Part shown: positions 371 through 21,277 of the stretch, one piece after another
Position numbering within the stretch: the stretch's first letter is position 1
How the letters are laid out: every line of letters begins with the position of its first letter
Assembly (NCBI RefSeq): GCF_003430825.1
Contig: NZ_CP024045.1
Span: forward strand, 1 to 64,000
Origin: Natrarchaeobaculum sulfurireducens
GTDB lineage: Archaea; Halobacteriota; Halobacteria; Halobacteriales; Natrialbaceae
Direction: 5' to 3'
Length of the DNA: 64,000 nucleotides
Made by a program: the position numbers and the translations under genes
Notes under the pieces: generated by a model
The model's database searches: none
What the model was told of the DNA's origin: nothing
What the model saw: the letters and a program-made list of their open reading frames with translations, nothing else

Positions 371-412
371 TCGAAACAGTTATGATTCTTGCCTGAATCA
401 GTCGAACACAAT

Positions 413-1651
413 ATGACTCCACGATTCCAGCCGGACGACACACTGTACAAACGACGGAATACACTCAAAGTCGAGTACGTTCCAGACGACATCGTCGGAC
501 GGGATAACGAGATTGAGGAGTACGAGGCAGCCCTCCAGCCGATCATCAACGGTGAGTACCCCGATAACATCTTCATTTACGGCAAGACCGGTGTCGGGAA
601 GACTGCTGTGACGAATTTCTTGCTAAACGAACTCCAGGAATCTGCAAAACATTTTGAAGTCGATCTCTCTGTCATCACACTCAACTGCGATGGCCTCAGC
701 ACGAGCTATCAGGCCGCGATCAGTCTGGTGAACAGTCTCCGAGAACCCGAACACCACATCGCTGAAACCGGTCATCCGCAATCCAAGGTCTATCGCCTTC
801 TCTGGGATGAACTCAATAATCTCTCTGGGACTGTCATCATCGTTCTCGACGAGATCGACCACATTACGGATGATACGTTCCTCTACCAGATTACTCGCGC
901 AGACAACAACGGATACATCGACAACATTCAACTTGGCCTCATCGGGATTAGCAACGACTCGACGTTCCGAGAGCAGCTTGACGCGAAGGTTCAATCGTCT
1001 CTGTGTGAAACCGAGATCTCGTTTCCGCCGTATGGAACTGAAGAGCTCCAGAAAGTTCTCGAACAGCGAGCAGATATCGCGTTCCATCAAAGCGCACTCG
1101 AGGACGGAGTGATTCCGTTGTGTGCTGCCCTTGGTCGCCAGGATGGTGGAGACGCCCGACGAGCGATTACGCTCCTTCGGAAGGCTGGCGATCTTGCACG
1201 CACCGAGAACGCGGATTCGGTTACGACTGATCATGTTGAACGCGCCCAGGAGAAACTTGAAGCACAACAGAGCATGGACATCATGCGCGATCTCACCGAA
1301 CACGAGCAGCTAACTCTCTATGCGTTGACTACGCTCGCTGCTGAGGGGGCCACGCCAGCTCGCTCACGTGTTGTCTATCAGCGTTACAAAGAATTCTGTG
1401 AGTATCAGGGTCGAGATCCCCGTACAGCCCGGCGGATGCGTAGCTTCCTCTCTGATTTCGAGATCCTCAATCTAACGCTCTCGCAGATGGAGCACCGTGG
1501 TCAGGACGGTGGTACATACCGTGAACATGAACTCAACCGCGATATTGCGACCGTCGTCGATGCGCTCCAAACAACAATCAGCGAGTTCGGTGCACACCGG
1601 AGCATCATTGAATATCTCCCTGATTCCGGAGAAGAATTTGCTGTGATGTAG
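413..1651 (+). CDS. Orc1/Cdc6-family replication initiator
   Basis: This is an AAA+ origin-binding protein that would recognise the upstream repeats and start plasmid replication. From the ATG at 413 it has 412 residues, typical for the family. The Walker A motif GKTGVGKT is at about residues 57-64 and a Walker B stretch VLDEID is near 145-150. A C-terminal winged-helix region follows after about residue 300. The reading frame is open to a TTG at 389, but the ATG at 413 gives the usual start just before the conserved basic N-terminus. The neighbouring origin-box-like repeats support a replicon-specific initiator. Haloarchaea carry many such paralogues, so no numbered symbol is given. Confidence 0.93.
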   Translation: MTPRFQPDDTLYKRRNTLKVEYVPDDIVGRDNEIEEYEAALQPIINGEYPDNIFIYGKTGVGKTAVTNFLLNELQESAKHFEVDLSVITLNCDGLSTSYQAAISLVNSLREPEHHIAETGHPQSKVYRLLWDELNNLSGTVIIVLDEIDHITDDTFLYQITRADNNGYIDNIQLGLIGISNDSTFREQLDAKVQSSLCETEISFPPYGTEELQKVLEQRADIAFHQSALEDGVIPLCAALGRQDGGDARRAITLLRKAGDLARTENADSVTTDHVERAQEKLEAQQSMDIMRDLTEHEQLTLYALTTLAAEGATPARSRVVYQRYKEFCEYQGRDPRTARRMRSFLSDFEILNLTLSQMEHRGQDGGTYREHELNRDIATVVDALQTTISEFGAHRSIIEYLPDSGEEFAVM

Positions 1652-2847: not shown

Positions 2848-3759
2848 TTACACCTCCACCTGCGTTTTGTCGAACGCCCGCTCCATTGTTTCTGCAACCT
2901 CGAGGAAGATATCGCGCTCTACTTGCTGGTCGTTCGCGTCCTCCCATTCGAAAATATCCCGTCCGTTGTCCCACGCACGCTGGATCGCCACCCGCATTGG
3001 GAGTTTGAAAATCGGCGCCATCGACGCGAAGGACTCGTCGAATGCGCTGAGGAACTTTTGCGACTGACCGTCGTCACGATACATATTTGCTAGGAGTCCG
3101 ACGATAGCAATCTCGAGCTGCTGGTTGTCCTCGATGGACTCCAGTTGGTCCCACAGGTCATCCAGCGCATCCCGTGACGTTGCTTGGGTTTGTGCAGCCA
3201 GGAAGACATTCTGAGCCGCGATGAACGCCGCATCCGTCAGGACTGAGAGGTCGGGAGGACAGTCGATTAAGATAAAATCGTAGTCGTATCCGTCCTCAAC
3301 CATCTCCTCGAGGGCGAGTTTCAGAGAGAGCCGGGCGTTCGCATCGTCCATCCAATCTCGAGCAAGGCCCATGTCCTTGTGACTGGGAATTAGATCGAAG
3401 TTCAGATGGTCGTACTCGTCGGCTTCGATCACGATCTCTGAAAGGCTAGTATCGTGCGTGCGCGGATTGTCGACGAGTACGTCGAGTAGGTTCTCGTCAT
3501 CGGTGACTAGTGTGTTGGGGAGTTCGTTCTTCGGGCTTGATGGATCGTTGTCGTCGCCTGGACCCAGTCCAAGTCCTTTCGTCATGTCGGCTTGTGGGTC
3601 CATATCGATTGCAAGAACATCGTGGTCGCGAGTGGCCAGCGCCGCGGCACTGTTGATCGTCGCCGTTGTCTTTCCAGTCCCGCCTTTCTGGTTACCGAAG
3701 GCGATCGTAGGGATGCCAGTTGATGGTGTGACGCCCCATCCACGAGGTGTCTCGGTCAT
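2848..3759 (-). CDS. ParA-family partition ATPase
   Basis: This is a deviant-Walker ATPase of the ParA/Soj/MinD superfamily, 303 residues, near the usual length. The deviant P-loop KGGTGKTT lies at about residues 29-36, followed by the switch-like D-MDPQAD motif (about 56-62) and LIDCPPDLS (about 162-170). It would drive plasmid segregation by nucleotide-dependent binding to DNA together with the small protein encoded immediately downstream. The start codon lies within the repeat field that begins at 3765, so operon expression is probably controlled by the same protein that binds the repeats, as in many plasmid par loci (inference). Confidence 0.93.
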   Translation of the reverse strand: MTETPRGWGVTPSTGIPTIAFGNQKGGTGKTTATINSAAALATRDHDVLAIDMDPQADMTKGLGLGPGDDNDPSSPKNELPNTLVTDDENLLDVLVDNPRTHDTSLSEIVIEADEYDHLNFDLIPSHKDMGLARDWMDDANARLSLKLALEEMVEDGYDYDFILIDCPPDLSVLTDAAFIAAQNVFLAAQTQATSRDALDDLWDQLESIEDNQQLEIAIVGLLANMYRDDGQSQKFLSAFDESFASMAPIFKLPMRVAIQRAWDNGRDIFEWEDANDQQVERDIFLEVAETMERAFDKTQVEV

Positions 3760-3764
3760 GGTTC

Positions 3765-4240
3765 GATCATTGAATCAATGACTCATAAATCCATGTCAGA
3801 CACTTAGTTGTGTTCCTCCCAATCTGTTCATAACGGATATCGTTGTCTGAGGGGTTGAATGGCGCGATATCACCACATGCCTTCCTTATCATTGAATCAG
3901 TGATTCACTGCATCTTTACATCACTGATTCAGTGAACCACTGATTCAGGGGCTCAATGATTTTCTGATTTGGGTTGTTGGGGGGTCTGGAATCTCCGATT
4001 CAATGCTTCAAATACTCGCTGATTCAGACACTCATTGACTCATAGATTCAATGAATCTGTGACTTAAATTGTGGGGATTCCTGAATCTTCAATTCAGTGC
4101 TTCAGTTATTCAGTGAATCATTGAATCATGGACTCAATGAATGCCCCTGCTAGCTGTTACATGATTCAAAGCTCATGGGATTACAGAGCCGCCGCTTCCA
4201 CTATTCACTACTTCATAGAATCACTGATTCCATGATTCTA
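3765..4240. repeat. Dense TGAATCA/TGATTCA repeat field (putative centromere and par operator)
   Basis: About 20 half-sites of the motif TGATTCA or TGAATCA, often as overlapping palindromes such as ATTGAATCAGTGATTCACTG (3891-3910) and CACTGATTCAGTGAA (3921-3935), are spread through roughly 480 bp. Further clusters lie near 3766-3786, 4018-4060, 4081-4140 and 4215-4235. No credible gene lies between 3760 and 4465. The field begins just upstream of parA and the motif recurs at 2373-2402 after the operon. This fits a partition centromere plus operator. An iteron-type accessory origin is the main alternative. Confidence 0.7.
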
Positions 4241-4465
4241 TGGTACAAATATCGGCTAGGAAAGACAACTGGACAGGCTTGACTGATGTCAACTGGTGTT
4301 CTTTTCGAATCGTTTCACGACACCGCTTCCCCAGTAGAGCCCCCAACCCTAGGTTCCGAGATCGTTGTAGACTGGCTCGTTCGCGTCGACGGGATAGCTG
4401 AAATCATATTTCGATATAGAACGAACTACCTCAACCTATATTAAGACGGGGTGCGAACTGCACGT

Positions 4466-5008
4466 ATGACCGAAAACGGATCGAGTTCCGAGGGTGGACT
4501 CATGGATCGCCAGACTACGGGTGAAGACCGTGTGCGGATGGTCGCCCGACAGCTATCGGAGCCGCGGACGGCAAACTGGATCGCGTCCGAAGCGGGCTGG
4601 TCACATGAGCCCACCAAACGCGTCCTCGAACGACTCGTCGATGATGGTATCCTCCATCGTGACGAGAGCGGCACCCATACGACGTATTATCCTGATTACC
4701 GCCGACAAGCGATGCAGGAAGCGATGCGCCTTCGGGACAGCGAGCACACCGTTGAGGAGCTCACGGATCGTCTCGCCGAAATGAAGGCACAAATCCGGGA
4801 CTGGGAGGATGAGTTCGATGTCGAATCACCGAATCAACTTCGCGGGACGCTCGCCGACGACGTCCTCGACGCTGACGAGGAAGGCCGTCGCCGTGAGATC
4901 GCCCGCGAATGGGAGCACCTCCAACGTCGCATCCGAATCGTTGGGTTCACCATCCGTGAATGGGATTTTTTGGCCCCAACAACAGAGCCCGCTGAGGCCC
5001 GCAGCTAA
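4466..5008 (+). CDS. Winged-helix protein resembling DUF7342-type antitoxin/regulator
   Basis: The protein (180 residues from the ATG at 4466) contains a helix-turn-helix around residues 30-75 with the pattern ANWIASEAGWSHEPTKRVL followed by a wing-like GTHTTYYPDY segment. A long charged helical region follows, which may mediate dimerisation. Its stop codon is three bases before the next gene, a TumE-like protein. In haloarchaea such pairs are widespread and look like toxin-antitoxin modules with the DNA-binding protein as antitoxin. A TATA-like CCTATATTA near 4434 fits a leaderless or very short leader transcript. Family naming is from memory of the fold and context. Confidence 0.65.
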   Translation: MTENGSSSEGGLMDRQTTGEDRVRMVARQLSEPRTANWIASEAGWSHEPTKRVLERLVDDGILHRDESGTHTTYYPDYRRQAMQEAMRLRDSEHTVEELTDRLAEMKAQIRDWEDEFDVESPNQLRGTLADDVLDADEEGRRREIAREWEHLQRRIRIVGFTIREWDFLAPTTEPAEARS

Positions 5009-5011
5009 CGG

Positions 5012-5470
5012 ATGTCGGTCCCGCATCCGGGTGGCGACCCGAACGCGAATCTATACGCCCAACTGAAGCGGGACGTCCTCGACCGTGTTCCACAGATCAC
5101 TGCAGTTGAGTACGTTCCGGATGATCTCGAGGCTAAGCAGTTGCGAGCAATTTTCGATCCAGACCGTCTTGACCCACCAACAGGGCCGGATTCGCCGGCA
5201 CTGACCGTCAAATGGTATCGACAGGATCCACACGACTGGTTTCGAATCAACTACACCGACCCAAACACGGGATTTCACGCTGGCTGGCACCAGGACGAGG
5301 ACCATCCCGACCTTGGACGGGCACATTTCCAGTATTCAGTCGCCAATGTAGAGGACCGGTGGGGTATCATATTCGAACACGAGACTCCCTCCTTGATTCT
5401 CTGGGAAATCGTCGAGGATCTCCTCGAGGATGTTCGGCCAACATACCAGTATTCAAACCACGAAAGGTGA
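5012..5470 (+). CDS. TumE-like (DUF6516-type) putative toxin
   Basis: The protein has 152 residues. It resembles TumE-like proteins in its central aromatic and histidine-rich stretch (DWFRINYTDP, then GWHQDEDHPDLGRAHFQY). The N-terminal helix-rich part is followed by a beta-rich core, and the C-terminus is acidic. It is co-oriented with and three bases downstream of a winged-helix gene, the usual organisation of the haloarchaeal pair. By analogy it would be the toxin, acting on nucleic acid or translation. No activity is shown by sequence alone, and the gene could be an orphan regulator. Confidence 0.55.
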   Translation: MSVPHPGGDPNANLYAQLKRDVLDRVPQITAVEYVPDDLEAKQLRAIFDPDRLDPPTGPDSPALTVKWYRQDPHDWFRINYTDPNTGFHAGWHQDEDHPDLGRAHFQYSVANVEDRWGIIFEHETPSLILWEIVEDLLEDVRPTYQYSNHER

Positions 5471-5496
5471 CTCCTCATCTATTATATGAGCGCCTA

Positions 5497-6804
5497 TTAT
5501 GTCCTCTCGCCGAAGGCTGTATCCAGCTGGTCCCGCATGAATTCACGGCGGACGCGGCGAGATCGCGAGTCTGAAAGATAATTCCGCATGACTACCTGAG
5601 GATCGCTACTACCCTGTTCTGCAGCTATGTCTTCGACACCCTCGAGAACGCCCTCGAGGACTGCTGTATAGGTGTCGTACCAGAAGCGACGACAAAGCTG
5701 CGGACTCGGGCGCTCACCTTCGATCCGTTCGGGGAGGCCAGCTTTCGACGATAGATCTTGGAACCAGTTCCGGATCGTATCTCGTGTCACGTGTGGTGTT
5801 TCTCCTTGTGAAGATGGGAACAGATACCCAGTCCACGACTCGTCGTCCGCTAGCTCGTCGATTCGGGAGTCAAGGATATCGAGGCCAAACAGTAGCGACA
5901 CTTCTCCTGGCCCGTTCTTGCGGCTCTCGAACGCAATAAAGGGGACGTCGTCTTCGGGAACATCACGATTGAACTGTGAGACGTGTAGTGCTGCGACCTC
6001 GCTCGCTCGAAGCCCCCAGGCAGCTAATGCTACCACTAGCAGCTGTTCTCGTGTCGTTCTTGCTGCCTGCATCAGTTTCCGTACGTGCGTTGCCGAAAGG
6101 GCTGGTGTAGGTGACTCCTCGACCTCCCACTTGAACTCGTCGTAGAGACCGCTCGCAGGATTTATCGAGGCGATCCGCCGCCCAACGAGATGCTGGTACC
6201 AGGCGTCGACGACCCGTCGCACACGCTGAAGCGTCTGAGCACTGTATGAGCGCTCTGTTCCTTCGTTCAACCAGTCGAATGCTGCGTAGCACGCGTCGAC
6301 GGCTTCGTAGGCTGGTGTCTCTTGTTCCCGTTGAATTGGTGAAAGGAGATCACCTGTGCCGTTCGCCTCACGATACGCATAGACGTAGAGATTTAGTCGT
6401 GTTCGGAGCGTGTTGACGGAAGAAGTCGAGAGACTGTATCGGGACTTTCGCCGGTCAAGAAACTGGCACAGGGCATCGATCGTTTCTTCGTCTTCTGTTT
6501 CCCACGCGTAGCCCTCGTCATCGTCACCGAGACCGAGGTCCTTGTTCCAAAACTCTCCGAAGGAGCGATCGTGATGGCGTCGTAGTGCTGCAAGGAACGA
6601 CCGTGCATCATGATCTCGAAACCACTGATGGGTCGGTTTCTCGCTTGTCGGATCGATACCCTCCGCCTCGAGACATGGGGCGATCTCGTTCCAGTATAGA
6701 TTGGTGAAGTCCTCGAGTGAGCATGATGTCCATCGGACACCATCGAACGAGGGTGTCTGCTCTACTTCGATTTCGGCATCCTGATCAGTCTCTGACTGGC
6801 TCAT
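5497..6804 (-). CDS. Tyrosine recombinase/integrase
   Basis: The protein has 435 residues from the ATG at 6804; the open frame extends to a TTG at 6819. The C-terminal half carries the recombinase core: catalytic arginine I in GLRASEVAAL (R about 266), the second box as SPQLCRRFWYD, where the usual histidine of HxxR reads as glutamine but the arginine is kept, and the nucleophile tyrosine in VMRNYLSD (Y about 409). The N-terminal half is a SAM-like core-binding region. It would catalyse site-specific integration or plasmid-dimer resolution. No tRNA or repeated attachment core was recognised nearby, so resolution is as plausible as integration. Confidence 0.85.
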   Translation of the reverse strand: MSQSETDQDAEIEVEQTPSFDGVRWTSCSLEDFTNLYWNEIAPCLEAEGIDPTSEKPTHQWFRDHDARSFLAALRRHHDRSFGEFWNKDLGLGDDDEGYAWETEDEETIDALCQFLDRRKSRYSLSTSSVNTLRTRLNLYVYAYREANGTGDLLSPIQREQETPAYEAVDACYAAFDWLNEGTERSYSAQTLQRVRRVVDAWYQHLVGRRIASINPASGLYDEFKWEVEESPTPALSATHVRKLMQAARTTREQLLVVALAAWGLRASEVAALHVSQFNRDVPEDDVPFIAFESRKNGPGEVSLLFGLDILDSRIDELADDESWTGYLFPSSQGETPHVTRDTIRNWFQDLSSKAGLPERIEGERPSPQLCRRFWYDTYTAVLEGVLEGVEDIAAEQGSSDPQVVMRNYLSDSRSRRVRREFMRDQLDTAFGERT

Positions 6805-7245
6805 TGGACTATTTTCCAAGGATTTCGTCTGTTCAGATCTCGAGTGGAGTTGAATTCTGTTAGAAGCCCACTCGCGTCACCGGTTGGCAATTCTGAGAGT
6901 GGCATATTCGGGTTGTTCAGCGTTTTAGTTGGATTCCTTATTAGTTTGTGGGTTTGGCTGACTGACAGAGTCTGCTAAACCCATGTTAATTTCGACGAGA
7001 TAATACGCCATTTTGATAAACCACATACTGCGATACAAACTCTGGTGGCCCTTTACCCGAAGTCACGAATTTGCCTTCTAAAAATCAGATGCTGAACGGT
7101 AAATCAGTCTGTCAAAGGATGTTCCGCGTTAATTCACGACCGTGAGTCCACTTACGAAACTCTCGATGTCTGCTTGATCAGTGTAATTGCAACTTATACA
7201 AGTTGTTCAGGCGGCGAGGGGTCGTCAACGTAGACCTATCGAAAA
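6805..7245. other. Intergenic stretch without a gene
   Basis: About 440 bp between the integrase start and the end of the next gene cluster. It is more AT-rich than its surroundings. I see no open frame worth calling and no clear inverted repeat. It probably holds the integrase promoter and the 3' end of the long leftward transcript from the DNA-processing island. Confidence 0.5.
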
Positions 7246-10200
7246 TCACTGTATTTGAGCACGTTTGAAGTTCGACGACTTACCAACCTTTCGCTCTAAC
7301 AACTCTGCAATATCTTTGTTAGCTGTTGCGAAAAGTATCTGCCGACGATTATCCGTGGCAAGTTCGATGAGTAAGTTAAAAAACGAAACCGTATTGATAT
7401 CGTCGAGATGGGCAAACGGCTCATCGAGCAGCATTAGCGGCGGTGCGTGAGGATGGGCCAAGTTGTTCGTGACGAAGATTGCGAGGGCCAACGCTGCACG
7501 TTGGCCAGAACTCATATTGCTGATGGGTTCACTCTTCTGGTAGCCACGGCGTGTTACACGGACTTCTCCGTTTTCAAGCTGGACACTCTCAAACTCGTAG
7601 GGTCGCTGGAAAGCCTGGAACAATGTCGTGATCACGGACATATGTTTTTTGACGAAAGATGTGAATTCTGACTCTCCGCCGACCCGCTCGAAGGCCGTTT
7701 CTAGCCGCTCAATCCCGTCTTGATATGCTTTCTTCTCAGCCTGCAGCTCAGCGATACGCTCGTTCAAATCCTTAATCTCTTCCGATAGTTCAGCCGCCGA
7801 CGCCAGCATCGTCGGTTCATCATCGATCTCAGCAAGCGTGGCACGGAGAATCCGATAATCGTCTTGGACATTCAGAGTACTATGCCACTCCTCATCAGAG
7901 ATGTGTTGTTCGATGACCTGTTTTCCAGCTTCGAGGTCATCTAATCGCGCTTGCAGGTTGCTCAACATCGCCGAGGTATCGTCATCTTCGGCGTCAAACT
8001 TTGGAATATCAACGCCTACTTCAACGATACTCTGCGAAATCGCATTTCGAGTCTGCTGAAGACGTTTAGCCGGTTTTGTTTGGTCGGCTGCGTCCACACC
8101 AAGCTTTCGCAAGGCCTCTCCAACGGTGGTACTCGTTGACGAGGTTGCATTGGGGAAGGACTCAACATCTGGATTTTCCTGAAGCAGTGCCTGAAGTTGT
8201 TCAAAGTGTTTCATACCACAGAGATCGTCGAATCGAGCAGAGACATCGTATTGAATCTCCGACCAGGAAGTCTGCTCAAGAATCTCAATTGCGTCCGTGA
8301 CAGTAGTGATTGTCTGGCGAAGCGATTCTGGAACATCGGTCTCGTCAATGAGCAGATCAGCTGGCTTGTCTCTAGTTCGAATATCCGCGTGACTCTGCTC
8401 AATGTAACAGGCAGGACAGTACTTGACAGTATCTGTGATCGTAAGATAGTCTTCTGTTAACGATCGAATTTCCGCCTGCAGCTCGCGTTGACGGGCCTGC
8501 AAATCAGAGATCTCTTCTAGTGTGTCTCGCCGCTCCACTAGTTCATCTTTGTGCTCTATAAGTCTCTCTTGAAGCGTCGATCGCCATTCCTCGATAGAGC
8601 CTACTTCGATCGAATCATCAAGGTCTCTTGTAGCGTCTGCAATGACGCGTAGATCAGATGGTTGGATTCCATGAGTGCTGAGAATAATCACAATAACGGC
8701 TGTGGGGGTTGAAATAGACTGCCATGCTGGCTTCTCAAAAAAAGTTTGAAGCCGCTTCAATTCAGCTCGATCCGTTTCGAGCGTTTTGATCTCCTCAAGT
8801 CGGTCGATACGTGTCTCTATCTCATCGATTGTGACTGTAAAGTGGGTGTGAAGGTCACCTGGTGTCGTCGGCAGCTGCTCGTCTTCATCTAAGGCTTTGA
8901 GGCTCGTGCGGAGGTACTGGAAGCGCTGCTTCCACTCTGCCCAGCTTTCAGGCCATTTAGTTCTAGAACCCGCACTTGGAACGTCAGCGACGTGCTCGAA
9001 ATTAGGCGGCTTGGTAACCAGGGACTGGGTAGCAGGCGATAAGTTCTTTGCAGCATTGCTTGCCTGAGATAAGATCGAAGTCGCCCGTTCTCTGTCCTCT
9101 TTTGCTTCCTGGAGTTGGATTTCTAGCTTCCGAATTTTGTCTTCCCGTTCGGAAATTTCGTTGTTTGCTCTCTTGATGAGCTCATCCTTTTCGTGACTTG
9201 CTTGAGACAGTCGTTCACCGTAAATAAATCGTCGAATCGTCCTTTCGAGATTCTGATCAGAATCCGACTCAATAAGACGGGTAGTCGCACCTGCTTCGTG
9301 GTAATTTACTCGATAGAACTCAATATGTTTGTGTTCATTACCCTGGGGACGGAATCCGAACCAATCAGCAATTCGATCACTTACATCTGCTGGATCGTTA
9401 GAGAGTGAAACTGAGTTCTCATCATCATCGATCAGAGTGACACGCAAATCATCATAGGCGTGGCTGCGGTTCTCTCCCCGTCGAATCTGTCCGACCATTC
9501 CAAGAGTTGCCCCATCAAGTAAACTTGTCTTTCCACTCCCGTTGCGGCCATAGAGAAGCGTGAACGGCTCGGCAGACAGCTCGCGACATTTTGCTGCTGG
9601 ACGGAATGACTCCCCGAGTTCGATCGTTTCTATAATTCCTTCGTAGGGATCCTCGATCTTCACTTCCTGCTCTGCAATCTCTGAAGGAGAATCGCTAATC
9701 AGCAGTTCGAGCCGCTCATCACGATTTGTCGAGTCAGTGTCAAAGAGGAAACCGAGATCGGCATCAAGAAGACTTTGAATCAACTCGCCCCGATCGAAAT
9801 CCGATTCGATCTTCTTGAGCTCTTCTTCTACAGCTCCGAGAGGTGTGAGAAAAGCTTCCAACGCGTCGGCAGTGACAGAGCGTCGAATTGCAAATCGCGT
9901 ATCTTGTTCCAATTCGTCGCGAATCGTTTCATCCAGATCTGTGCCTTCACGACAAGCCCAGATAAGCTGGATATTCCAGCGATTCGCGATCTCCTCATTG
10001 TAGAAAAGGACCTCCAACTCCCGGTTGTCTTCCTCGAGTAATTTCTCAGGATCCGACTCCGACCCTAAGAAGCGAATGAGTAATGTCTCATCACTGAATC
10101 CTTCACGTTCGTGCTCGATTTTGTACAGCTCGCCTGGACGATCCACTCGCTGGATTGATTGGGGCGAAAATAGATCAGTAAGCCTTTCGTATCCGTTCAT
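7246..10200 (-). CDS. Rad50/SMC-like ATPase with N-terminal extension
   Basis: A 984-residue ABC-type DNA-associated ATPase. Walker A GRNGSGKT is at residues 218-225, after an N-terminal extension of about 200 residues that I do not recognise. Long charged coiled-coil stretches (about 340-410, 460-600 and 730-860) flank a central CPAC (about 595) that could be half of a Rad50-type zinc hook. The C-terminal lobe has the signature MSSGQRAALALA (about 896-907) and Walker B LMLLDEPFAHLD (about 922-933). Rad50, RecN and SbcC relatives tether or scan DNA ends. The N-terminal extension sets this protein apart from canonical Rad50. No Mre11-like nuclease lies beside it. Its start is two bases after the stop of the nitrilase-like gene, so the two are almost certainly co-translated. 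Confidence 0.85.
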   Translation of the reverse strand: MNGYERLTDLFSPQSIQRVDRPGELYKIEHEREGFSDETLLIRFLGSESDPEKLLEEDNRELEVLFYNEEIANRWNIQLIWACREGTDLDETIRDELEQDTRFAIRRSVTADALEAFLTPLGAVEEELKKIESDFDRGELIQSLLDADLGFLFDTDSTNRDERLELLISDSPSEIAEQEVKIEDPYEGIIETIELGESFRPAAKCRELSAEPFTLLYGRNGSGKTSLLDGATLGMVGQIRRGENRSHAYDDLRVTLIDDDENSVSLSNDPADVSDRIADWFGFRPQGNEHKHIEFYRVNYHEAGATTRLIESDSDQNLERTIRRFIYGERLSQASHEKDELIKRANNEISEREDKIRKLEIQLQEAKEDRERATSILSQASNAAKNLSPATQSLVTKPPNFEHVADVPSAGSRTKWPESWAEWKQRFQYLRTSLKALDEDEQLPTTPGDLHTHFTVTIDEIETRIDRLEEIKTLETDRAELKRLQTFFEKPAWQSISTPTAVIVIILSTHGIQPSDLRVIADATRDLDDSIEVGSIEEWRSTLQERLIEHKDELVERRDTLEEISDLQARQRELQAEIRSLTEDYLTITDTVKYCPACYIEQSHADIRTRDKPADLLIDETDVPESLRQTITTVTDAIEILEQTSWSEIQYDVSARFDDLCGMKHFEQLQALLQENPDVESFPNATSSTSTTVGEALRKLGVDAADQTKPAKRLQQTRNAISQSIVEVGVDIPKFDAEDDDTSAMLSNLQARLDDLEAGKQVIEQHISDEEWHSTLNVQDDYRILRATLAEIDDEPTMLASAAELSEEIKDLNERIAELQAEKKAYQDGIERLETAFERVGGESEFTSFVKKHMSVITTLFQAFQRPYEFESVQLENGEVRVTRRGYQKSEPISNMSSGQRAALALAIFVTNNLAHPHAPPLMLLDEPFAHLDDINTVSFFNLLIELATDNRRQILFATANKDIAELLERKVGKSSNFKRAQIQ

Positions 10201-10202
10201 TG

Positions 10203-11933
10203 TTATAGATCCACAAGTCCGGCATTCGCGTCGACCTCTTCTGGATCACTCATCACACTAGTTGCATCCTCGTATTGTGCAAGCGTTTTCATCTGCCCAT
10301 CTCCAATTATTCTATTCACCACTACGACTGGCTTGAAGCTAATGTCCTTTTTTCTGAGCCACTCTTGCAGCCATTTTGCGCGGGCAACTTCGTCTGGCTC
10401 TGACTCTTGGGGGAGAAACGAGAGACAGATGGGAACATTATCTTCTTGGTATGTCGCGTTCACTGGGACTTTTGTCTGATCAAAGTCTGGATCCAGCTCG
10501 ATCTCCTCTTTCTCTTCGACGAGTCTCACAACCCCTAGCAATTCGTTCGCAATTGTCTCTGGATGGTTTTTATTACTTGGCCGGTGTTCTGTCGTCGGCT
10601 CACGGCGATCGTGCAAACAGAGTAATGGGCCAAATTCCTCCGTCTCACCACCATGAAGCGCTTTTAATGTTTCCCACCGCAGGTGCTCTAATGGGTTGAA
10701 TCTGTCAGGAATCGACTTGACATCGATTTCTGCCCGCAGGATAGCACCGATCAGTTCTTCATGGAGTGGGGTTGTATCAAGCAGCTCGCGCCAATCCCTG
10801 CAATGAGCGGACCCATTGGAGGAAGTTGATGAGATTTCAGTATAGTTATCGCCATTATATACCCACGTTTTGACGAGCTTGAGATTCGCCATACGTCGAT
10901 TCATGGCAGGAGGGCTATTGGGGTCTGAACGAGCAAATGTGAACTTACTGATCACATCATCTAGCAGCAGACACACATACTCGGATTTGCACTCAGGTCT
11001 GGTCCCAATCAAGCCGCCAAGTTGACAGGTCTTGTCGTATTCGCTGCCGAGCACTGTTGAGTGAGCGGTTTTAGTATATATGCCTGAGTACCCGCAGTGC
11101 TCAGAGTCGTTGATCGTTCCCCAGTTTGCACTGATATATGTAACTTGTGTTTGAGTTTCGAACAGGTCTTCGCGAAACCGTGTCCAGTTTTTATCAAACG
11201 GTCCCGGATTACACTGTACGTGCACAATATAGGACCGTTTTGTGCGGCCGAATTCGATCATTTGCTCTTCCAGTTCTGGATCTCCCACATCGGAACAGGT
11301 CCACACAGCGAGTTCCGATTCAGTACCTGCGGGATTGACTCGCCAGACGCCGCTCCCCTCAGCCAGCTTCCGCTCTTCAGCGCTGTTTATGCCGCCGCTC
11401 ATGTGTTTGTTTTTGAACTGAATTAGCAGTGCGTCCTCTGCGTTGCTGCTACGAGCGGCAGCCTTAATTGGAATGATCGTCGGCGTGACGAACTCTTTTG
11501 CGTCATTCTGCGGAACAAGAGTGTTGTTCCTATCGACTACAGTTTCAGCGGAGAGACACTCATAGTTCGAATCCAACTGCTCAATGAAATTGCCCATATT
11601 TTCGATTTCCACAGGCGCACACCCAAGCAAAAAAAGCGGACTCTCGGGGGCGAACAGAAATTCTTCATGATCGTGGATCCAGCTAATATCATATGCCCAT
11701 TCAGGCGCCACTGCCAGCTGACATCCGCTTTCGACAGCTCGCTGGAGGAACGACTCGGCTCTATCCTTCATGTCCACCAATGATGGCAATTCATGGAGAT
11801 TTCTCACTCGTCCACTCGGTTGCCAGATCATAACCTGCTTGTCCTGTGTCGCGTCGTCGAAAATGGGATATCTATTAGCAGTTAGATCCCCAAGAGCCTC
11901 TTGAGCACTACAGATCCGGTCAAAATCAGTCAT
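10203..11933 (-). CDS. Nitrilase-fold (C-N hydrolase-like) protein in a DNA-processing operon
   Basis: The 576-residue protein shows the Glu-Lys-Cys arrangement of the nitrilase superfamily: APEWAY with E about 78, FKNKHMSG with K about 176, and AVWTCSDVGD with C about 213. The family-like asparagine strand (VHVQCNPGP) and SANWG follow. This suggests an intact hydrolase site for C-N bonds (amide or nitrile type). The C-terminal 250 residues are not recognised. It sits directly upstream of, and two bases from, the Rad50/SMC-like gene and follows the helicase-nuclease genes, an unusual context for a metabolic enzyme. A role in modifying a nucleotide, signal or protein during defence is possible but speculative. 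Confidence 0.7.
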   Translation of the reverse strand: MTDFDRICSAQEALGDLTANRYPIFDDATQDKQVMIWQPSGRVRNLHELPSLVDMKDRAESFLQRAVESGCQLAVAPEWAYDISWIHDHEEFLFAPESPLFLLGCAPVEIENMGNFIEQLDSNYECLSAETVVDRNNTLVPQNDAKEFVTPTIIPIKAAARSSNAEDALLIQFKNKHMSGGINSAEERKLAEGSGVWRVNPAGTESELAVWTCSDVGDPELEEQMIEFGRTKRSYIVHVQCNPGPFDKNWTRFREDLFETQTQVTYISANWGTINDSEHCGYSGIYTKTAHSTVLGSEYDKTCQLGGLIGTRPECKSEYVCLLLDDVISKFTFARSDPNSPPAMNRRMANLKLVKTWVYNGDNYTEISSTSSNGSAHCRDWRELLDTTPLHEELIGAILRAEIDVKSIPDRFNPLEHLRWETLKALHGGETEEFGPLLCLHDRREPTTEHRPSNKNHPETIANELLGVVRLVEEKEEIELDPDFDQTKVPVNATYQEDNVPICLSFLPQESEPDEVARAKWLQEWLRKKDISFKPVVVVNRIIGDGQMKTLAQYEDATSVMSDPEEVDANAGLVDL

Positions 11934-12148
11934 TGTTGCAGCTTAGTGTATCTGAATATGATTTTCAGTGTACTATATATTTTGCCCATATGAGGTAACT
12001 CTCTAGTCTATATAACAAAGAAAGGTAGTACAATGGTGTTTACAACGAATGTTCTGGTCGGCCTTATGATGACCGAGGCATTCTAATCAATATTGGCCTC
12101 CAAGATTACAAAAATATGGCTGCAGTTTCTAATCTGTGTACTTCCGGA

Positions 12149-14716
12149 TTATGAAATCGAGGCTGGTGGTCGCTGTTCATCGGCAGGAATCACTTCACTA
12201 TCCGTCTTTGGTAGGTGCTCATCGAGGTCATCCTCCTCTTGATCGCCGAGCAGATGTTTGAGGACGTCCGCAGCTGCAGGAGAGTACAGCGGGCGGTTGT
12301 CGTTCCCGCAGCGGTCGTCCATCGTACAGGCCGGACACCCTTCATCACGACCGCATGAGCAGTCGGCGATGAGGTCGTGGGCACGTTGGGCAACGTCTTC
12401 GAAGTGTTCGTAAATCGACCGCGAGAACCCGAGACCGCCCTCGATCCCGTCGTAGATGAACCATCCACTTTTCTCGGGATTACCAGGAAGCCGATTCGTC
12501 GCAAGCCCGCCGATATCTCCGCCATCGACTTTCAACTCAAGTGGAGAGACAGCGATCATGGCGTGCTCGACAGCGTGAATTCCACCGAGGTACCCATGAA
12601 GCCGTGGTGGGAGGTTGATGCACTCCGGGTTGTGGTACTCCGAGTGCTTGTTGAGCATCGCCCGTTCGATGTCGTTGGGGGTCTCGGCCCAACATAGCTG
12701 GGTTCGCATCTCTAACGGGGGGACACCAGTATCATTGCCTAACTCAAGTACTTCTCCACTTCCGATTTCACGCTTGAGGTACGTGCTATAGTGGACCGAT
12801 ACCGTTCCATACCCCCAATTGAGCGTGAATGGCCCAACCTCGCGCGAGTCTTCGATAACTGTGTCATAGATGTTGACTTGCCCCTGTGACTGAGTGTAGT
12901 AATTCACGTTTGCTTTTTCAAGAGAGATGTATGGCTGAGGAATGTCTTCTCTGAGTTCAACGACCTGATACTGCTCACCCTGGTGCAAGACAGTTGCCCC
13001 CTCATGGTAGTCTCTGTATGCTCTATCGCGACCTATTGACTGATGATCGATCGTATTATCGCCGACCAGCCGGACATCGAAGGTGTTTCCGCCGGAAGAA
13101 TACAGGCTGATCAAGTCCTGGGGGCGATCGCGATGATTGTACATCACTCCGCCATCGAGTGATCCTTCGAGATCACCCTTCCGTCGGCCGTACTCAACAG
13201 CACGTTTCAACCGTTCCTCTCCTCCAAAAGCGTCCGCATCATCCCATGTAAGCGGGAGTTCCTGCGCAGCACAGTTGAGTTGCTGGAGATACACTGGGTT
13301 GTTGTCCAAGTCGACGACGGCGCTCTCGTGGTCCTCTTCGAGGACGTACTCTGGGTGTTGTAGGATGTACTGGTCGAGAGTGGAATGGCTCGGAACGAAC
13401 ACCGAGAGTGCGTCTCGAGTTCCCCGGCCTGATCGGCCTATCCGTTGCCAGAACGACTGTCGTGATCCCGGATAGCCCATAAGAACGGTTCCATCAACAC
13501 CGCCGATATTGATACCAACCTCGAGGGCGCTTGTCGTCGAGACGCCATCGAGGTGGCCCTCTTTGAGCTGGTACTCAGTCGCTCTTCGTGACTTTTTGCC
13601 GTGTCCAGCGTGGTAGGCGGCAAGATCGGACCCCTTCTGATAGTTGTTCTTCGGATTGCTGAGGAACCTTTTGGCGCGATTGACGGACAATTCAGTAAGT
13701 TTTCTCGAGTCACAGAATAGGAGCGATTGGACATTCTTCTGGCACATATGCGCCCATACTTCTGGGGCCTCAACCGTTGCTGGACGCTTAGCCAGCGCCG
13801 GTGAGTCGATATCGTCAGTAAGGCCGTCATCGCCGCTCATCGGGGGATCCCAAAAGACGAGGTGGCGGATTCCTCTTGGAGAGCCATCTTCGTCGACGAC
13901 CGTCGCAGGCTCACCCGTGAGTGCGAGAGCATGTTCGGCAGGATTACCGATCGTTGCTGTTGTTAAGACGTACTGTGGGTCGCCGCCATAGTAGTCGATG
14001 ATTCGTTGGGCGCGTCGAAGTATCCAAGCGACGTGCATACCGCCGAGGCCAGTCCACATGTGGGCTTCATCGATAACAACTAGCGAGCAATTCGAGTGAA
14101 AATCAGCCCAGAGGTGATGTCCTTCTAAGTACTGATTTAATCCAACAAAGTTCGTGATCACGACATTGCACTCCTCGCGGATACGAGACTTCTCCTCGCT
14201 CTTTGTGTCGCCATCATAAACGCCTACACTGATGTCCAGTCCAAGCGTGTTACGCAGGAACTCGTTGAGCTCTTGCTCCTGGTCACGGCTGAGCGCCTTC
14301 GTCGGATAGACGATGAGAGACCGTGTATCTGGGTTCTTAATGTATTGGCGGGCGATGTGGAGGCCGTACACGAGTGTCTTCCCGGAGGACGTACTGGTTG
14401 CCACACAGACGTTTCTCCCACGTTCAAGCACGCGGAGCGCTTCTCCCTGGTGACTCCACGGGTCAAATTCGAGATTTTGAGCGATCTTAGGAGGAAGTAC
14501 ATCTTCTGCAGGAACGGTCTGTTCCTCTCGAGCGGGAATCTCGAAGTTCTTGTGGACCTGTCCAAAGTATCGGTTCTCTGGGTAGGTATTCTTGAGTTCC
14601 CTGCCAGTAAGTTGGAGGACGTCTTTCCCTGTGTCAACGCCTTCTTCGTCGTTTTTGTTCCCCGAATCGTTCCCGAGGCTTGTCTGACTGTAATCGGTGT
14701 TGTGGTCGTCGTACAT
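12149..14716 (-). CDS. MrfA/Hrq1-type SF2 DEAH helicase with C-terminal cysteine cluster (copy 1)
   Basis: An 855-residue superfamily 2 helicase. Walker A STSSGKT is at about residues 108-114, DEAH at 216-219, motif III TATIGNP at 253-259, and motif VI GRSGRG in the second RecA lobe. The C-terminal MrfA/Hrq1 (DUF1998) region ends in a CxC-x5-CxxC-x5-C cluster (C786, C788, C794, C797, C803), likely a zinc site. B. subtilis MrfA of this class is a 3'-5' helicase that works with the exonuclease MrfB in repair of mitomycin damage. Here an MrfB-like gene lies directly upstream with a two-base gap, so the pairing is conserved. Confidence 0.9.
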   Translation of the reverse strand: MYDDHNTDYSQTSLGNDSGNKNDEEGVDTGKDVLQLTGRELKNTYPENRYFGQVHKNFEIPAREEQTVPAEDVLPPKIAQNLEFDPWSHQGEALRVLERGRNVCVATSTSSGKTLVYGLHIARQYIKNPDTRSLIVYPTKALSRDQEQELNEFLRNTLGLDISVGVYDGDTKSEEKSRIREECNVVITNFVGLNQYLEGHHLWADFHSNCSLVVIDEAHMWTGLGGMHVAWILRRAQRIIDYYGGDPQYVLTTATIGNPAEHALALTGEPATVVDEDGSPRGIRHLVFWDPPMSGDDGLTDDIDSPALAKRPATVEAPEVWAHMCQKNVQSLLFCDSRKLTELSVNRAKRFLSNPKNNYQKGSDLAAYHAGHGKKSRRATEYQLKEGHLDGVSTTSALEVGINIGGVDGTVLMGYPGSRQSFWQRIGRSGRGTRDALSVFVPSHSTLDQYILQHPEYVLEEDHESAVVDLDNNPVYLQQLNCAAQELPLTWDDADAFGGEERLKRAVEYGRRKGDLEGSLDGGVMYNHRDRPQDLISLYSSGGNTFDVRLVGDNTIDHQSIGRDRAYRDYHEGATVLHQGEQYQVVELREDIPQPYISLEKANVNYYTQSQGQVNIYDTVIEDSREVGPFTLNWGYGTVSVHYSTYLKREIGSGEVLELGNDTGVPPLEMRTQLCWAETPNDIERAMLNKHSEYHNPECINLPPRLHGYLGGIHAVEHAMIAVSPLELKVDGGDIGGLATNRLPGNPEKSGWFIYDGIEGGLGFSRSIYEHFEDVAQRAHDLIADCSCGRDEGCPACTMDDRCGNDNRPLYSPAAADVLKHLLGDQEEDDLDEHLPKTDSEVIPADEQRPPASIS

Positions 14717-14718
14717 TG

Positions 14719-16176
14719 TTAGAAGTCCATGAGTCCGGTCTGTGTGGTGTTTTCATCGGCTAGGATGCTGGCACGTTTGTGACCGGGTGCTGCCTCAGCA
14801 ATGGATTCGTAAACTGCAGCCAACTCGCGGACGTCAGCTTCGCAATATGCTCGAGCCGACTCCCAATCTACGTCACGTGCACGTTCTGGTGACGCGAGAA
14901 GGCGCTGAACGGTCTTGGCCAGCGATCCTCCGTCGACGCTTGCTGCTGACGCATCACGGCCATGTCCAAGTGCTTCAGCGACATCTTCGATCTGGTTTGT
15001 TCGACCAGGAAGAATGGCGTTGCCTTTTCGTACGGCCCAGTCCAGTAGGTCGTACTCAAACACAGAATCTGTCCAATAGTCCGTATACTCCGGTGCGTGT
15101 CCCCTGATGAATCGGCTGAGGTATTTGAAGTCAAAATCGTGGCCGTTCCATGCAATAAGTGAAGGACGATCGTGCTCACTGGCAAGCCATGCGATAAACT
15201 CTCGGGTGGCTTTTCCAGGATTGTCTCGTGACGGCTCTTTATCGATAAAGTCTACATATTCATCTGACTCAGGATTGTAGACGCCGATGAGCCAGATGAT
15301 ACTTGGATTAAGGCTATCCGTCTCGATATCGATGAACAGCGGAGTGTACTCTGCTGCAGGGACAGCTTCGTTCGTGAGTCGGATGACACATCCTTTGGAA
15401 AGCGCGTGGGCACTCTGGCGGATGCTCTGAGCTTTTGATTCTCCGATTCCCCGAATCTTTTGAAGTTCTCGTTCAGTTGCAGCTATGACATCATCGCGCG
15501 TCTTATAGCCGTTCTGAGCTAAATTCTGGGCGGTTTCCCCACCTACGCCGGACAACGCACGAAGCCCGAATTTATTCGCTGGTGTTGTCGAGACTGCAAT
15601 GTGGCCATCTGGACCGAGCGAAAAACATGCGAGTTCCGGTTCTCCTTGACGACGATTTGGAGCGAGTCCACGAACGGAGAGGCGAACGCTCTCACCGTCG
15701 ACATTGGCATACCATACGAAATCGTAACTGGCTTCCATCGTCCCTGTGAGGTACGTCGTATCTTGAGCAGCGTGGTGCTGGTAGCGAGCAAGATGTTCGA
15801 GACCCTCGAGCGAGGCATCCATTGTGACCGAGTCAGTGTTCGTCTGGATCTCATCACAGATGACGTAGTCCGCGTCGTTCGGGATACTCTGACCACTAGC
15901 GGTAGAGGCTCCGCCTATGTAATCGAGAGATCTGATGATAGATACGGTAGTACCCTCAATTTTCTCGGTGTGGACTGCACTCCGCCGGGTGTATACTACT
16001 GGGCACGAGGCGGTACGTTCGATCGTGCTTACAATTCGCATATCCAGCTTTTCCTCGACGATATAGATGAGATCAGCCTCGAAGTAGCCGACGAGATCGC
16101 TGATAGCGGTCGTTGTTGCTTCGGCTAACGCGTCGCATCGAAGGGCGAGCAAGCGTACGCCGGAATCACCTGTCAT
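14719..16176 (-). CDS. MrfB-like HhH/RNase H-fold exonuclease
   Basis: This 485-residue protein has an N-terminal domain with RecB-like features (up to about 200), a helix-hairpin-helix pair (LSGVGGETAQNL and IRGIGESKAQSI, about 208-253) and a C-terminal RNase H-like 3'-5' exonuclease domain. The exonuclease motifs are FIDIETD (D283, E285), WNGHDFD (D349) and YCEADVREL near 448-456, matching the DEDD-type YprB/MrfB class. It would digest one strand after unwinding by the helicase encoded two bases downstream. The HhH part should give non-specific DNA binding. The start at 16176 follows an intergenic stretch of about 160 bp that likely carries a promoter. Confidence 0.85.
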   Translation of the reverse strand: MTGDSGVRLLALRCDALAEATTTAISDLVGYFEADLIYIVEEKLDMRIVSTIERTASCPVVYTRRSAVHTEKIEGTTVSIIRSLDYIGGASTASGQSIPNDADYVICDEIQTNTDSVTMDASLEGLEHLARYQHHAAQDTTYLTGTMEASYDFVWYANVDGESVRLSVRGLAPNRRQGEPELACFSLGPDGHIAVSTTPANKFGLRALSGVGGETAQNLAQNGYKTRDDVIAATERELQKIRGIGESKAQSIRQSAHALSKGCVIRLTNEAVPAAEYTPLFIDIETDSLNPSIIWLIGVYNPESDEYVDFIDKEPSRDNPGKATREFIAWLASEHDRPSLIAWNGHDFDFKYLSRFIRGHAPEYTDYWTDSVFEYDLLDWAVRKGNAILPGRTNQIEDVAEALGHGRDASAASVDGGSLAKTVQRLLASPERARDVDWESARAYCEADVRELAAVYESIAEAAPGHKRASILADENTTQTGLMDF

Positions 16177-16338
16177 GTCTTAGTGCGTAGTAGTACCTAG
16201 GAGTCAGATGTCTTATAACTAGCGACTAGTCACTATACGATGTTGCTATTTCTAGATTTTAGCCCATCCTCATTCTATACTCACTATGGTTTCTATTCTA
16301 ACAAGATCAAAATTTCACCAGTCACCCATTGAATCTTT

Positions 16339-18804
16339 TTAGTGCCGAACAGGGACTTCTAACAGTTGCTCCACAAGACGAACTGCAAGCTGCTTGTTCA
16401 GTGTTCGATTCGCGTTCCCACACTGAGGGGAATGAACACATGAAGGACACCCATCTTCGCATGGGCAGCTACGGAGCATCTCTAACGTCCGCTTGAGCAT
16501 CGTTTCTAACTTCCCAAACGCTTCTTGCGAGAGACCTACTCCACCTGGATGGCCATCGTGAACGAAAATCGTGCTCTGACCCGTATGAGGATGATATTCA
16601 GTTGAGAGACCGCCGACGTCGCGACGAGCACAGAGTATCTCGAGCGGGAACAGCGAGATTAGTGCGTGTTCCAGAGCGTGAATACTCGCGAGGAATCCAT
16701 CCTCTTTTTCGCTTACTGCTTTAATGTCCTCCTCAATCTGGGACGGGATCGTGAAATAGAGACCACGGGTATGAATTGTTCGTTCAGGAAGCGGCTCGTC
16801 AAAATCCCGCTCGACCCCGTCTTCATCTGACGGATGATCGTATAACATGTAGCCGGTCACTTTTTCTGCTACTGTGATGTCCGCGAACCCAACTGAGATC
16901 GTTTTGTGTGATGCCAGCTTGCTTGCCTTGAGTTCTTCTTTGACCATAATCTGCTTCTCAGTGAGTGGGCGGGTGTAACCCATCGTATTCACCGACTTTA
17001 GCAGCACACGGTCAGCATCGAAATCTGCCTCCGTCACACGGTAAGTTTCCTTCTGGTGATGATATATCGCTCCGGGATGAGCATCACGCAGTGCGTCCCC
17101 AAACGGTAACGAGGTGAGTGTCTTGTCTCGCAGGCGATCGTAAAGGTCGATTTGCCGATCGTCAATGGAACGGATATCCATCGTATGCTGTGGGCTGTCC
17201 TCTCCGATGTACTTCCACCGAGGGCCGGTTCGGGAACTGAATCGCTCTAATTGGTTTTCCTCATCGAGGGATGCAACAGTCGTTGGATATTCGTCGCCGA
17301 AGTAGGACTCATCATTGGTTCCCAGGAACAATTCTTGAGCCGCACAGCAGACATGGTCATCTAATATTTGTGTGTTTGAGGGGTTGACAGCTGCCTGTTC
17401 TGGATCACCATCGAACAAACGATCTGGATTCGCCATGCAATATTGGTCCAATGGGTTAGGACTCGCGACGAGGGCGACCAGACTTGGACTCTCTCCTCGT
17501 CCAGCACGACCTGCACGCTGGAATGTGCTCATATTGGTTCCCGGGTGACCGTCGAGGAGGACGACATCGAGACTGCCGATGTCAATTCCGAGTTCGAGGG
17601 CGTTCGTACTCCAAACTCCACGAATGGATCCGTCTCGAAGGCCAGCTTCGATGGTTGTTCGCCGCTTGTCCGGAAGCGCTGAGTGGTATGCAGTAATTTG
17701 ATCTGCAAGCTCGTGTTCGCCACGCTTCCGGAGCTTGCTGTCGCACCAGTTCGCATATTGCTCAGTCCCCTGTCTAGCTCGTGTGAAGACTAGCGTCTGA
17801 TAGCCTCGTTGAACGAGATCACAAAACAACTGAACCGTCTCTGGATGATGAGATCGACGCTCGCCACCGATGATCTCATTGTGATGAGGGACTTCAACTG
17901 GCACCGTTGGTGACTGACCTGTTTTTGGATCTCTATCCGTAGTTGATGGTAATCCATCGGCAGTGGAGATCTTTGGATCGTGTTCCTCGTTTTCTCTTAT
18001 CGGGGGATTCCAAAAGATCCAATGGCGGGGACCTGTTGCGCTGGCATCGTCGTCAATAAGGGTGAATTGAGAGGACGGTTGTCCAGTGACGGATGCTGCG
18101 TGTTCAATCGGGTTTCCAATGGTTGCTGAACAGCAGATGTACTGGGGAGTAGAGTCATAATATTCTGCCAGACGTGAGAGTCGACGGAAGACAAGAGAGA
18201 CATGACTCCCGAATATCCCCCGGAACTCATGCACTTCGTCAATTACGATCGTTTCGAGCTGCTGGAATAACCATTTCCAGTGCTTTGGCGACTTAGAATA
18301 TGGGAGAAAACTTTTGTGAATCATATCAGGAGTAGTCAAGAGAATATCTGGCTGCTGGGCCCAAACTTCGCGCTTCTCCGAATCTGTTAATAGACCTGTA
18401 TACGTGGCTATGTTGATGCTCCTATCATTATTAAGGTCTTCAGCTATATTGGAAATTGTGTCCTTTTGATCATTGATCAGAGCATTCATTGGAGCAATAT
18501 AGAGCGTTTTCCCATGATGATCCAGAGCGCGTTCAAGAGCTGGAACCGTGTAGGCGAGACTTTTTCCACTGGCTGTTGGAGTAGCGAGTACGACATGCCC
18601 CCCATCTCGAATGGTTTCGATTGCATCCGCTTGGTGTTGGAAAGGTTCATTGATATTGCGTCGAGAGAGCGCACGTGCTAACCGATCGTCGAGATTAATC
18701 GGCGCGGTTTCAGCGGATGTCCCTGGCGTTCGTTCTTGGTGGATAATTTGGCCTTCGTAGTAGGGCCGATCTTTCAGCCACTCGATTGTATCCTCTATAG
18801 ACAT
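16339..18804 (-). CDS. MrfA/Hrq1-type SF2 helicase (copy 2)
   Basis: An 821-residue paralogue of the helicase at 12149-14716 with the same architecture: Walker A TPTASGKS (about 75-82), DEVH (189-192), SATIGNP (motif III), GRAGRG (motif VI) and the C-terminal CxC-x3-CxxC-x5-C cluster (C780, C782, C786, C789, C795). It differs in having DEVH instead of DEAH and a shorter N-terminus. Two divergent MrfA-type helicases around one MrfB-like nuclease suggests either division of labour on the two strands or fusion of two ancestral operons. It lies 50 bp downstream of the PLD-ATPase gene and is probably co-transcribed with it. Confidence 0.88.
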   Translation of the reverse strand: MSIEDTIEWLKDRPYYEGQIIHQERTPGTSAETAPINLDDRLARALSRRNINEPFQHQADAIETIRDGGHVVLATPTASGKSLAYTVPALERALDHHGKTLYIAPMNALINDQKDTISNIAEDLNNDRSINIATYTGLLTDSEKREVWAQQPDILLTTPDMIHKSFLPYSKSPKHWKWLFQQLETIVIDEVHEFRGIFGSHVSLVFRRLSRLAEYYDSTPQYICCSATIGNPIEHAASVTGQPSSQFTLIDDDASATGPRHWIFWNPPIRENEEHDPKISTADGLPSTTDRDPKTGQSPTVPVEVPHHNEIIGGERRSHHPETVQLFCDLVQRGYQTLVFTRARQGTEQYANWCDSKLRKRGEHELADQITAYHSALPDKRRTTIEAGLRDGSIRGVWSTNALELGIDIGSLDVVLLDGHPGTNMSTFQRAGRAGRGESPSLVALVASPNPLDQYCMANPDRLFDGDPEQAAVNPSNTQILDDHVCCAAQELFLGTNDESYFGDEYPTTVASLDEENQLERFSSRTGPRWKYIGEDSPQHTMDIRSIDDRQIDLYDRLRDKTLTSLPFGDALRDAHPGAIYHHQKETYRVTEADFDADRVLLKSVNTMGYTRPLTEKQIMVKEELKASKLASHKTISVGFADITVAEKVTGYMLYDHPSDEDGVERDFDEPLPERTIHTRGLYFTIPSQIEEDIKAVSEKEDGFLASIHALEHALISLFPLEILCARRDVGGLSTEYHPHTGQSTIFVHDGHPGGVGLSQEAFGKLETMLKRTLEMLRSCPCEDGCPSCVHSPQCGNANRTLNKQLAVRLVEQLLEVPVRH

Positions 18805-18854
18805 CTTCCCTTCACGAGATTTTGTGTTATAGGTATCATTTGCGTTTTATCTTC

Positions 18855-21002: not shown

Positions 21003-21277
21003 TGGATTCGAAATTGGACCTTCATCATTTAGGTGTAGTCCGGCCGAGGTTCGTTAGGGCCACTTTCCGTACGACAATCTGTAGGTTCGATCCATCCAGC
21101 TGTAATCTCGGCTCGTTTGTGGGATGGATTCCGACTCGTGTGTTCATATGCCATCCTCTTTGAGGCCACCAATACTCTGTCAGGAAATAAATGTTCCGAC
21201 TAGAACCATCTCAAACACGGTATTATGAAAATACTACCATCAAAAAGTAGTTATATCTCTAGTCTGGTTGAGGTACT

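Follow-up and report, generated by a model that had tools for sequence, protein, structure and literature searches.

A divergent nitrilase paired with a Rad50-like ATPase in archaea: a candidate conflict module resembling Lamassu/ABC-3C

Introduction

To our knowledge, nitrilases are rare in immunity, DRT1 is the only well-studied immune example so far, and few such systems have been tested in archaea. Nitrilases need oligomerisation for activity. The middle component (LmuC/MC) is absent from some Lamassu/ABC-3C systems.

In Lamassu/ABC-3C systems, a Rad50-like sensor recognises aberrant DNA. The effector combines a variable enzyme domain with a C-terminal docking region; it is kept inactive at first and later set free (PMC10586767). 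The C-N hydrolase is among the effector domains listed for these systems in the same review, which cites Krishnan 2020 and Millman 2022. LmuB is typically ~650 aa long, and its Walker B motif usually, if not universally, has Gln instead of Glu (PMC10586767). Freed LmuA tetramerises (PMC12409362). In DRT1, the nitrilase is the effector domain of abortive infection and is active as a tetramer (PMC13275509).

Here we describe a two-gene locus on the minus strand of a 101-kb haloarchaeal contig, the first 64,000 nucleotides of which (the window) were analysed. An earlier note on this DNA had read the locus as a nitrilase-fold enzyme coupled to a Rad50/SMC-like ATPase, and had proposed that nucleic acid sensing might lead to a nucleotide or cofactor being depleted or modified.

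Results

The 576-aa protein belongs to the nitrilase superfamily

The open reading frame at 10203..11933 (minus strand) is real and intact by ORF calling and encodes a nitrilase-superfamily protein of 576 aa. It matched no model in Pfam, NCBIfam or PADLOC, so its identity as a nitrilase had to be tested. PF00795 did not match it even at E 0.1-0.5, a result that we treat as a test of sensitivity and not as a defining feature of the protein. PDB sequence searches with the single protein, and also with a seven-sequence profile, returned no nitrilase match, and thus a profile-profile comparison was needed. The canonical set consisted of 15 C-N hydrolases found by PF00795 in the window genome and in related archaeal genomes. 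The family profile (alignment A7) matched this set in hhalign with a probability of 93.6 and an E-value of 2.2e-7, whereas reversed and 20 column-shuffled control profiles gave E-values of 0.027 to 0.76.

An AlphaFold model of the full-length protein had a mean pLDDT of 43, with roughly 50-80 in the enzyme core, and was too poor for triad geometry. When this low-confidence model was used in Foldseek, all matches at E<=0.001 (18/18) were nitrilase-superfamily structures. The best were amidases and carbamoylases; the glutaminase part of NAD synthetase and the Lnt acyltransferase followed at weaker E-values. By profile comparison and by the fold search with a predicted model, we identify the protein as a nitrilase, and the fold assigned in the earlier note is borne out.

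The C-N hydrolase domain is N-terminal (about residues 31-300) and is followed by a family-specific C-terminal region. The stretch from about residue 340 to 576 (~235 aa; 10206..10916, minus strand) had no Pfam match and belongs to no recognised family. It is less conserved than the enzyme domain and is a candidate docking or regulatory region.

The catalytic tetrad is invariant

It had been proposed that E78, K176 and C213 form the catalytic Glu-Lys-Cys triad. In the profile alignment, E78 (codon 11700..11702, minus strand) and C213 (11295..11297, minus strand) fell on the canonical catalytic Glu and Cys, but the catalytic Lys is K174 (11412..11414, minus strand). Residue 176 is variable, being K, C, H, Q or Y in relatives, which rules it out as the catalytic lysine. 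A second conserved Glu, E186 (11376..11378, minus strand), completes the usual tetrad. All four residues are invariant in 18/18 homologous loci, among relatives that share 15-45% identity. The earlier note had held that a lack of triad conservation in homologues next to SMC-like genes would speak against its reading; with K174 as the lysine, the residues are invariant there, both in archaea and in one bacterium.

The partner is a Rad50-like ATPase with a putative middle-component domain

Two base pairs separate the nitrilase stop from the start of the SMC-like frame, as had been described, and the coupling is kept in 17/18 loci. The partner is a Rad50/SMC-like ATPase of 984 aa (7246..10200, minus strand), recognised by Pfam SMC_N/AAA_21, by PADLOC LmuB (5e-28) and by Rad50 structures in the PDB, where its best relatives are archaeal Rad50. 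LmuB models are the closest defence models and match 10/10 family members, with a best E-value of 6e-33. On the minus strand, the gene encodes a Walker A motif, GRNGSGKTS (residues 218-226; 9523..9549), which is conserved in the ATPase alignment (A5), and a zinc-hook-like CPACY (residues 595-599; 8404..8418), the CPxC of which is invariant in 10/10 members. An ABC signature, SSGQR (7498..7512), and a Walker B motif, LMLLDEP (7417..7437), in which the catalytic Glu is kept, were recognised from the sequence and the alignment. Within the family, the ATPases range from 984 to 1041 aa, and Walker B reads DEP in haloarchaea and DDP in Polaromonas and methanogens.

The ATPases begin with a domain of 180-195 residues (in the window about residues 1-195; 9616..10200, minus strand) that is weakly similar to ABC-3C Middle Component 1 (MC1, PF20289). 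MC1 was the top family for this region at scores below gathering, with E-values of 1e-4 for Polaromonas and 0.009 for the window. The N-terminus of a methanogen TPR protein also matched MC1 below the gathering score (E 0.02), and it matched the N-terminus of the Polaromonas ATPase at E 1e-9. Two other haloarchaeal ATPase N-termini gave no match to MC1, the match was visible in 1/10 full-length ATPase members, and a fold search with a model of the N-terminal domain gave no match below 0.001. An MComp1 family search of 146 haloarchaeal genomes also gave no match, but its controls were equally silent and the search was uninformative.

Haloarchaea have no separate middle-component gene; the MC1-like domain is fused to the ATPase. 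Two methanogens (G646 and G762) instead encode it in a gene of its own within the cluster. As the domain is fused in one lineage and has its own gene in the other, the gene-fusion argument suggests that the ATPase, the nitrilase and the MC1-like domain cooperate.

The two genes are found together in a few scattered genomes

We sought relatives in whole genomes, genome contigs and plasmids and found 18 distinct loci. Thirteen are from haloarchaea: the window, G170, G071, G047, G265, G079, G066 and G357, along with loci from Natrinema salsiterrestre (L025), Halonotius terrestris (L019), Natronorubrum bangense (L022), DL31 (L035) and a MAG (L023). Four are from methanogens (G646, G560, G810 and G762), and one lies on plasmid pPNAP01 of Polaromonas naphthalenivorans (L034); bacterial genomes were reached through plasmid records only, so that the bacterial range is under-sampled. 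The nitrilase is rare and patchy, occurring in 9/392 genomes of the order and in 4/200 of the methanogen class. Searches of phage and viral-contig collections returned no relatives of it.

Next to the nitrilase, 17 of the 18 loci carry a Rad50/SMC-like gene. The two frames usually overlap by 4 bp, but they are 14 bp apart in Polaromonas. When 243 genomes were searched for the ATPase, matches appeared in five, all of them nitrilase carriers. Thus, the pairing is close to obligatory, and the coupling of the two genes is far beyond chance. At the 18th locus, in the MAG, the nitrilase is intact and an ATG overlaps its stop, but the SMC frame ends after ~32 codons (L023:2163-2264). This remnant is either a decayed partner or an assembly fault.

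Gene order is inverted in G646 and G762, where a STAND-TPR-Rad50 fusion is followed by the nitrilase and then by an MC1-TPR protein. The methanogen fusion joins a STAND-like NTPase, TPRs and a Rad50 ATPase in one protein of 1687-1699 aa beside the nitrilase (L037:10239-15302 and L097:2604-7703). A 1457-aa protein at L097:9552-13925 has an MC1-like N-terminus, TPRs and a second nitrilase-like domain at its C-terminus. By eye, this second domain apparently lacks the catalytic Cys, with IGNE instead of ICYD.

The module occupies a cargo slot

Orc1/Cdc6, ParA-like and TraG/VirB4-like genes (window 389-1651, 2848-3759 and 37517-39703) indicate that the 101-kb contig is probably a plasmid, with conjugation-type genes. 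An AT-rich gap of 215 bp (11934..12148, minus strand) precedes the nitrilase and contains, by eye, a TATA-like CTATATATTTT at 11973-11983 (plus strand). These features suggest that the nitrilase probably has a promoter of its own in this gap.

Homology breaks against three related genomes (G046, G019 and G176) define a swappable cassette of 5.1 kb (7039..12152, minus strand). An upstream run is common to the window and these genomes, with 81-82% DNA identity over the matched part. The homology ends at about 12153, at the end of the second helicase, and restarts at 7038-6861 on the side of the integrase, which is 81% identical to the G046 integrase. In the G046 slot, the nitrilase and its ATPase are replaced by an Mre11-like phosphoesterase and a Rad50-like ATPase with a 4-bp overlap. 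The slot in G019 holds ORFs of 443 and 1157 aa that match the G046 pair in length, strand and overlap. Since different gene pairs occupy one slot, we regard it as a cargo site and the nitrilase pair as one complete cargo. The Rad50-like proteins of the window and of the G046 slot are distant relatives only; therefore, whole modules are swapped and not the effector alone. No convincing repeats were found at the boundaries of the cassette, and an Rfam scan of window 4000-22500 found no RNA family. The slot pair of an Mre11-like phosphoesterase and a 1157-aa Rad50-like ATPase lies at L078:12825-17596 and L088:7792-12593 (domains checked in L078 only).

The run at window 12149-21002 encodes a PLD/P-loop fusion (715 aa), an MrfA-like helicase, an MrfB-like nuclease (RNase H-fold with HHH) and a second MrfA-like helicase. 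We considered whether this run is part of the nitrilase system and rejected the idea: it is present without the nitrilase-SMC pair in G046, G019 and G176, and it was seen at none of the other nitrilase loci examined. Relatives of the PLD protein occur in 31/146 genomes, and the run may be an independent system for defence or repair. Further along, window 22402-28809 holds an AddAB-like cluster made up of a UvrD helicase/PD-(D/E)XK protein (1156 aa) and a further PD-(D/E)XK protein; G019 has ORFs of matching length at this place. Window 44434-45657 encodes NrS-1 polymerase HBD and ANG-1-like domains in one protein, and the neighbouring gene product (1453 aa; 39684-44045) gives a weak D5-like match.

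Known defence systems lie nearby

Genes near the nitrilase-ATPase loci include Hachiman HamA with a helicase, BREX PglZ (1e-185), Dsr1, type IIG restriction-methylation and HmaC. An integrase and transposases are also among the neighbours. The gene neighbourhoods, the patchy distribution and the swappable slot support the defence reading offered in the earlier note. Directly downstream of the nitrilase-SMC genes in three haloarchaea, we also observed an AddAB-like pair of PD-(D/E)XK and UvrD helicase genes (L008:9089-14535, L019:14875-20321 and L022:14881-20327).

Discussion

The module shares several properties with Lamassu/ABC-3C. It has a Rad50-like coiled-coil ATPase with a CPxC hook, for which LmuB is the closest defence match, and operonic coupling. 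Its putative effector has an N-terminal enzyme domain followed by a candidate docking region, and the N-terminus of the ATPase is a candidate MC1-like domain. Unlike in Lamassu/ABC-3C, the middle-component-like domain is here fused to the ATPase, or else to TPRs beside a STAND-TPR-SMC fusion. The ATPase is also longer (984-1041 aa compared with the ~650 aa of LmuB), and in haloarchaea its Walker B motif still has Glu. The nitrilase did not match the PADLOC LmuA models, and its C-terminal region has no recognised homology.

Other systems resemble parts of the module. DRT1, a class 3 UG reverse transcriptase with a C-terminal nitrilase domain, likewise has an intact nitrilase site and a presumed abortive-infection effector under a DNA-handling partner. 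In DRT1, however, the RT is in the same polypeptide, whereas the module has a separate Rad50-like ATPase; no RT domain was found in the nitrilase protein or in the neighbouring window genes that were scanned. Mre11-Rad50/SbcCD-like pairs, such as the one in the G046 slot, also couple an enzyme gene to a Rad50-like ATPase, but there the enzyme is a metallophosphoesterase nuclease and not a C-N hydrolase fold. By profile comparison, the nitrilase has the Glu-Lys-Cys and second Glu of canonical nitrilase-superfamily amidases (PF00795). It differs from them in being too divergent for Pfam, in its extra ~235 C-terminal residues and in having an ATPase gene almost always adjoining.

Based on these comparisons, we propose that the two genes probably form a conflict module with the logic of Lamassu/ABC-3C: aberrant DNA would be sensed by the ATPase, the nitrilase would be unleashed and abortive infection would follow. 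The first part of the model concerns the sensor. The Rad50-like coiled-coil ABC ATPase, with its CPxC hook, would bind abnormal DNA of an invader, such as ends, hairpins or replication intermediates. Before this, the two proteins may form a complex in which the enzyme is probably kept in check by the MC1-like N-terminus of the ATPase and by its own C-terminal region.

The second part of the model concerns the enzyme. DNA sensing would release or re-arrange the nitrilase and switch it on, probably in oligomeric form. Such a sequence of release and oligomerisation would agree with the Lamassu (LmuA) and the DRT1 precedents alike. The active Glu-Lys-Cys site would then cleave a C-N bond, either of an essential small molecule or of another amide, and the infected cell would stop growing.

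We weighed three other explanations. It is conceivable, if unlikely, that the nitrilase acts on the invader itself and not on a free metabolite. The ATPase would then present it with, for example, a modified base, a DNA-linked protein or an adduct at a DNA end, and the two proteins would act as a processing machine of the Mre11-Rad50 kind that uses C-N hydrolase chemistry. The Mre11-like and Rad50-like genes in the same plasmid slot of a relative (with matching lengths in G019) are consistent with this, as are the AddAB-like helicase-nuclease genes that follow the pair in three haloarchaea. However, the nitrilases known so far have small molecules or acyl groups as substrates, and because the whole cassette was swapped and the ATPases are distantly related, the swap does not show an enzyme replacing a nuclease.

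We think it quite improbable that the pair is a DNA-repair or housekeeping module carried on mobile elements. The homology of the ATPase to Rad50 could be read in this way, as could the helicase and MrfB-like genes that precede the pair in the window. Yet the repair-like genes upstream are present without the pair in three other genomes, and the nitrilase occurs in just nine of the 392 genomes of the order, on plasmids and on islands that adjoin known defence systems. Finally, the nitrilase fold might serve as an amidotransferase, an acyltransferase or a signal-making enzyme, with the product and not the loss of a substrate being what matters; the weaker fold matches to the NAD synthetase glutaminase part and Lnt, and the DRT1 authors' leaving open that the nitrilase domain generates a toxin (PMC13275509), lean this way, but no synthetase or transferase partner domain was seen and the top fold matches are amidases and carbamoylases, which makes this role very unlikely.

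The idea that a nitrilase serves in defence beside a Rad50-like ATPase is less new than the earlier note implied, because C-N hydrolases are already listed as ABC-3C/Lamassu effectors and a nitrilase is already the effector of DRT1. Our literature search found no text combining a nitrilase with Lamassu, and Krishnan 2020 and Millman 2022 may mention the exact family. Compared with described Lamassu/ABC-3C systems, the module stands apart in that its middle-component-like domain is fused to the ATPase, haloarchaeal members retain the Walker B Glu, neither LmuA nor Pfam models match the nitrilase, and the genes are rearranged in methanogens. More tentatively, the module may be an uncharacterised, second and RT-independent recruitment of nitrilase chemistry to immunity, in haloarchaea, methanogens and bacteria, in which a Rad50-like DNA sensor with a fused middle component could switch on a nitrilase, and an essential amide metabolite would be destroyed or converted by it.

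As the nitrilase is separate from the sensor, either protein can be expressed, mutated and assayed without the other. The methanogen loci, in which the MC1-like domain and the ATPase are distributed differently over the genes, are natural controls for sensor-effector coupling of the ABC-3C type. The substrate of this nitrilase, once found, would tell us which metabolite an immune nitrilase attacks.
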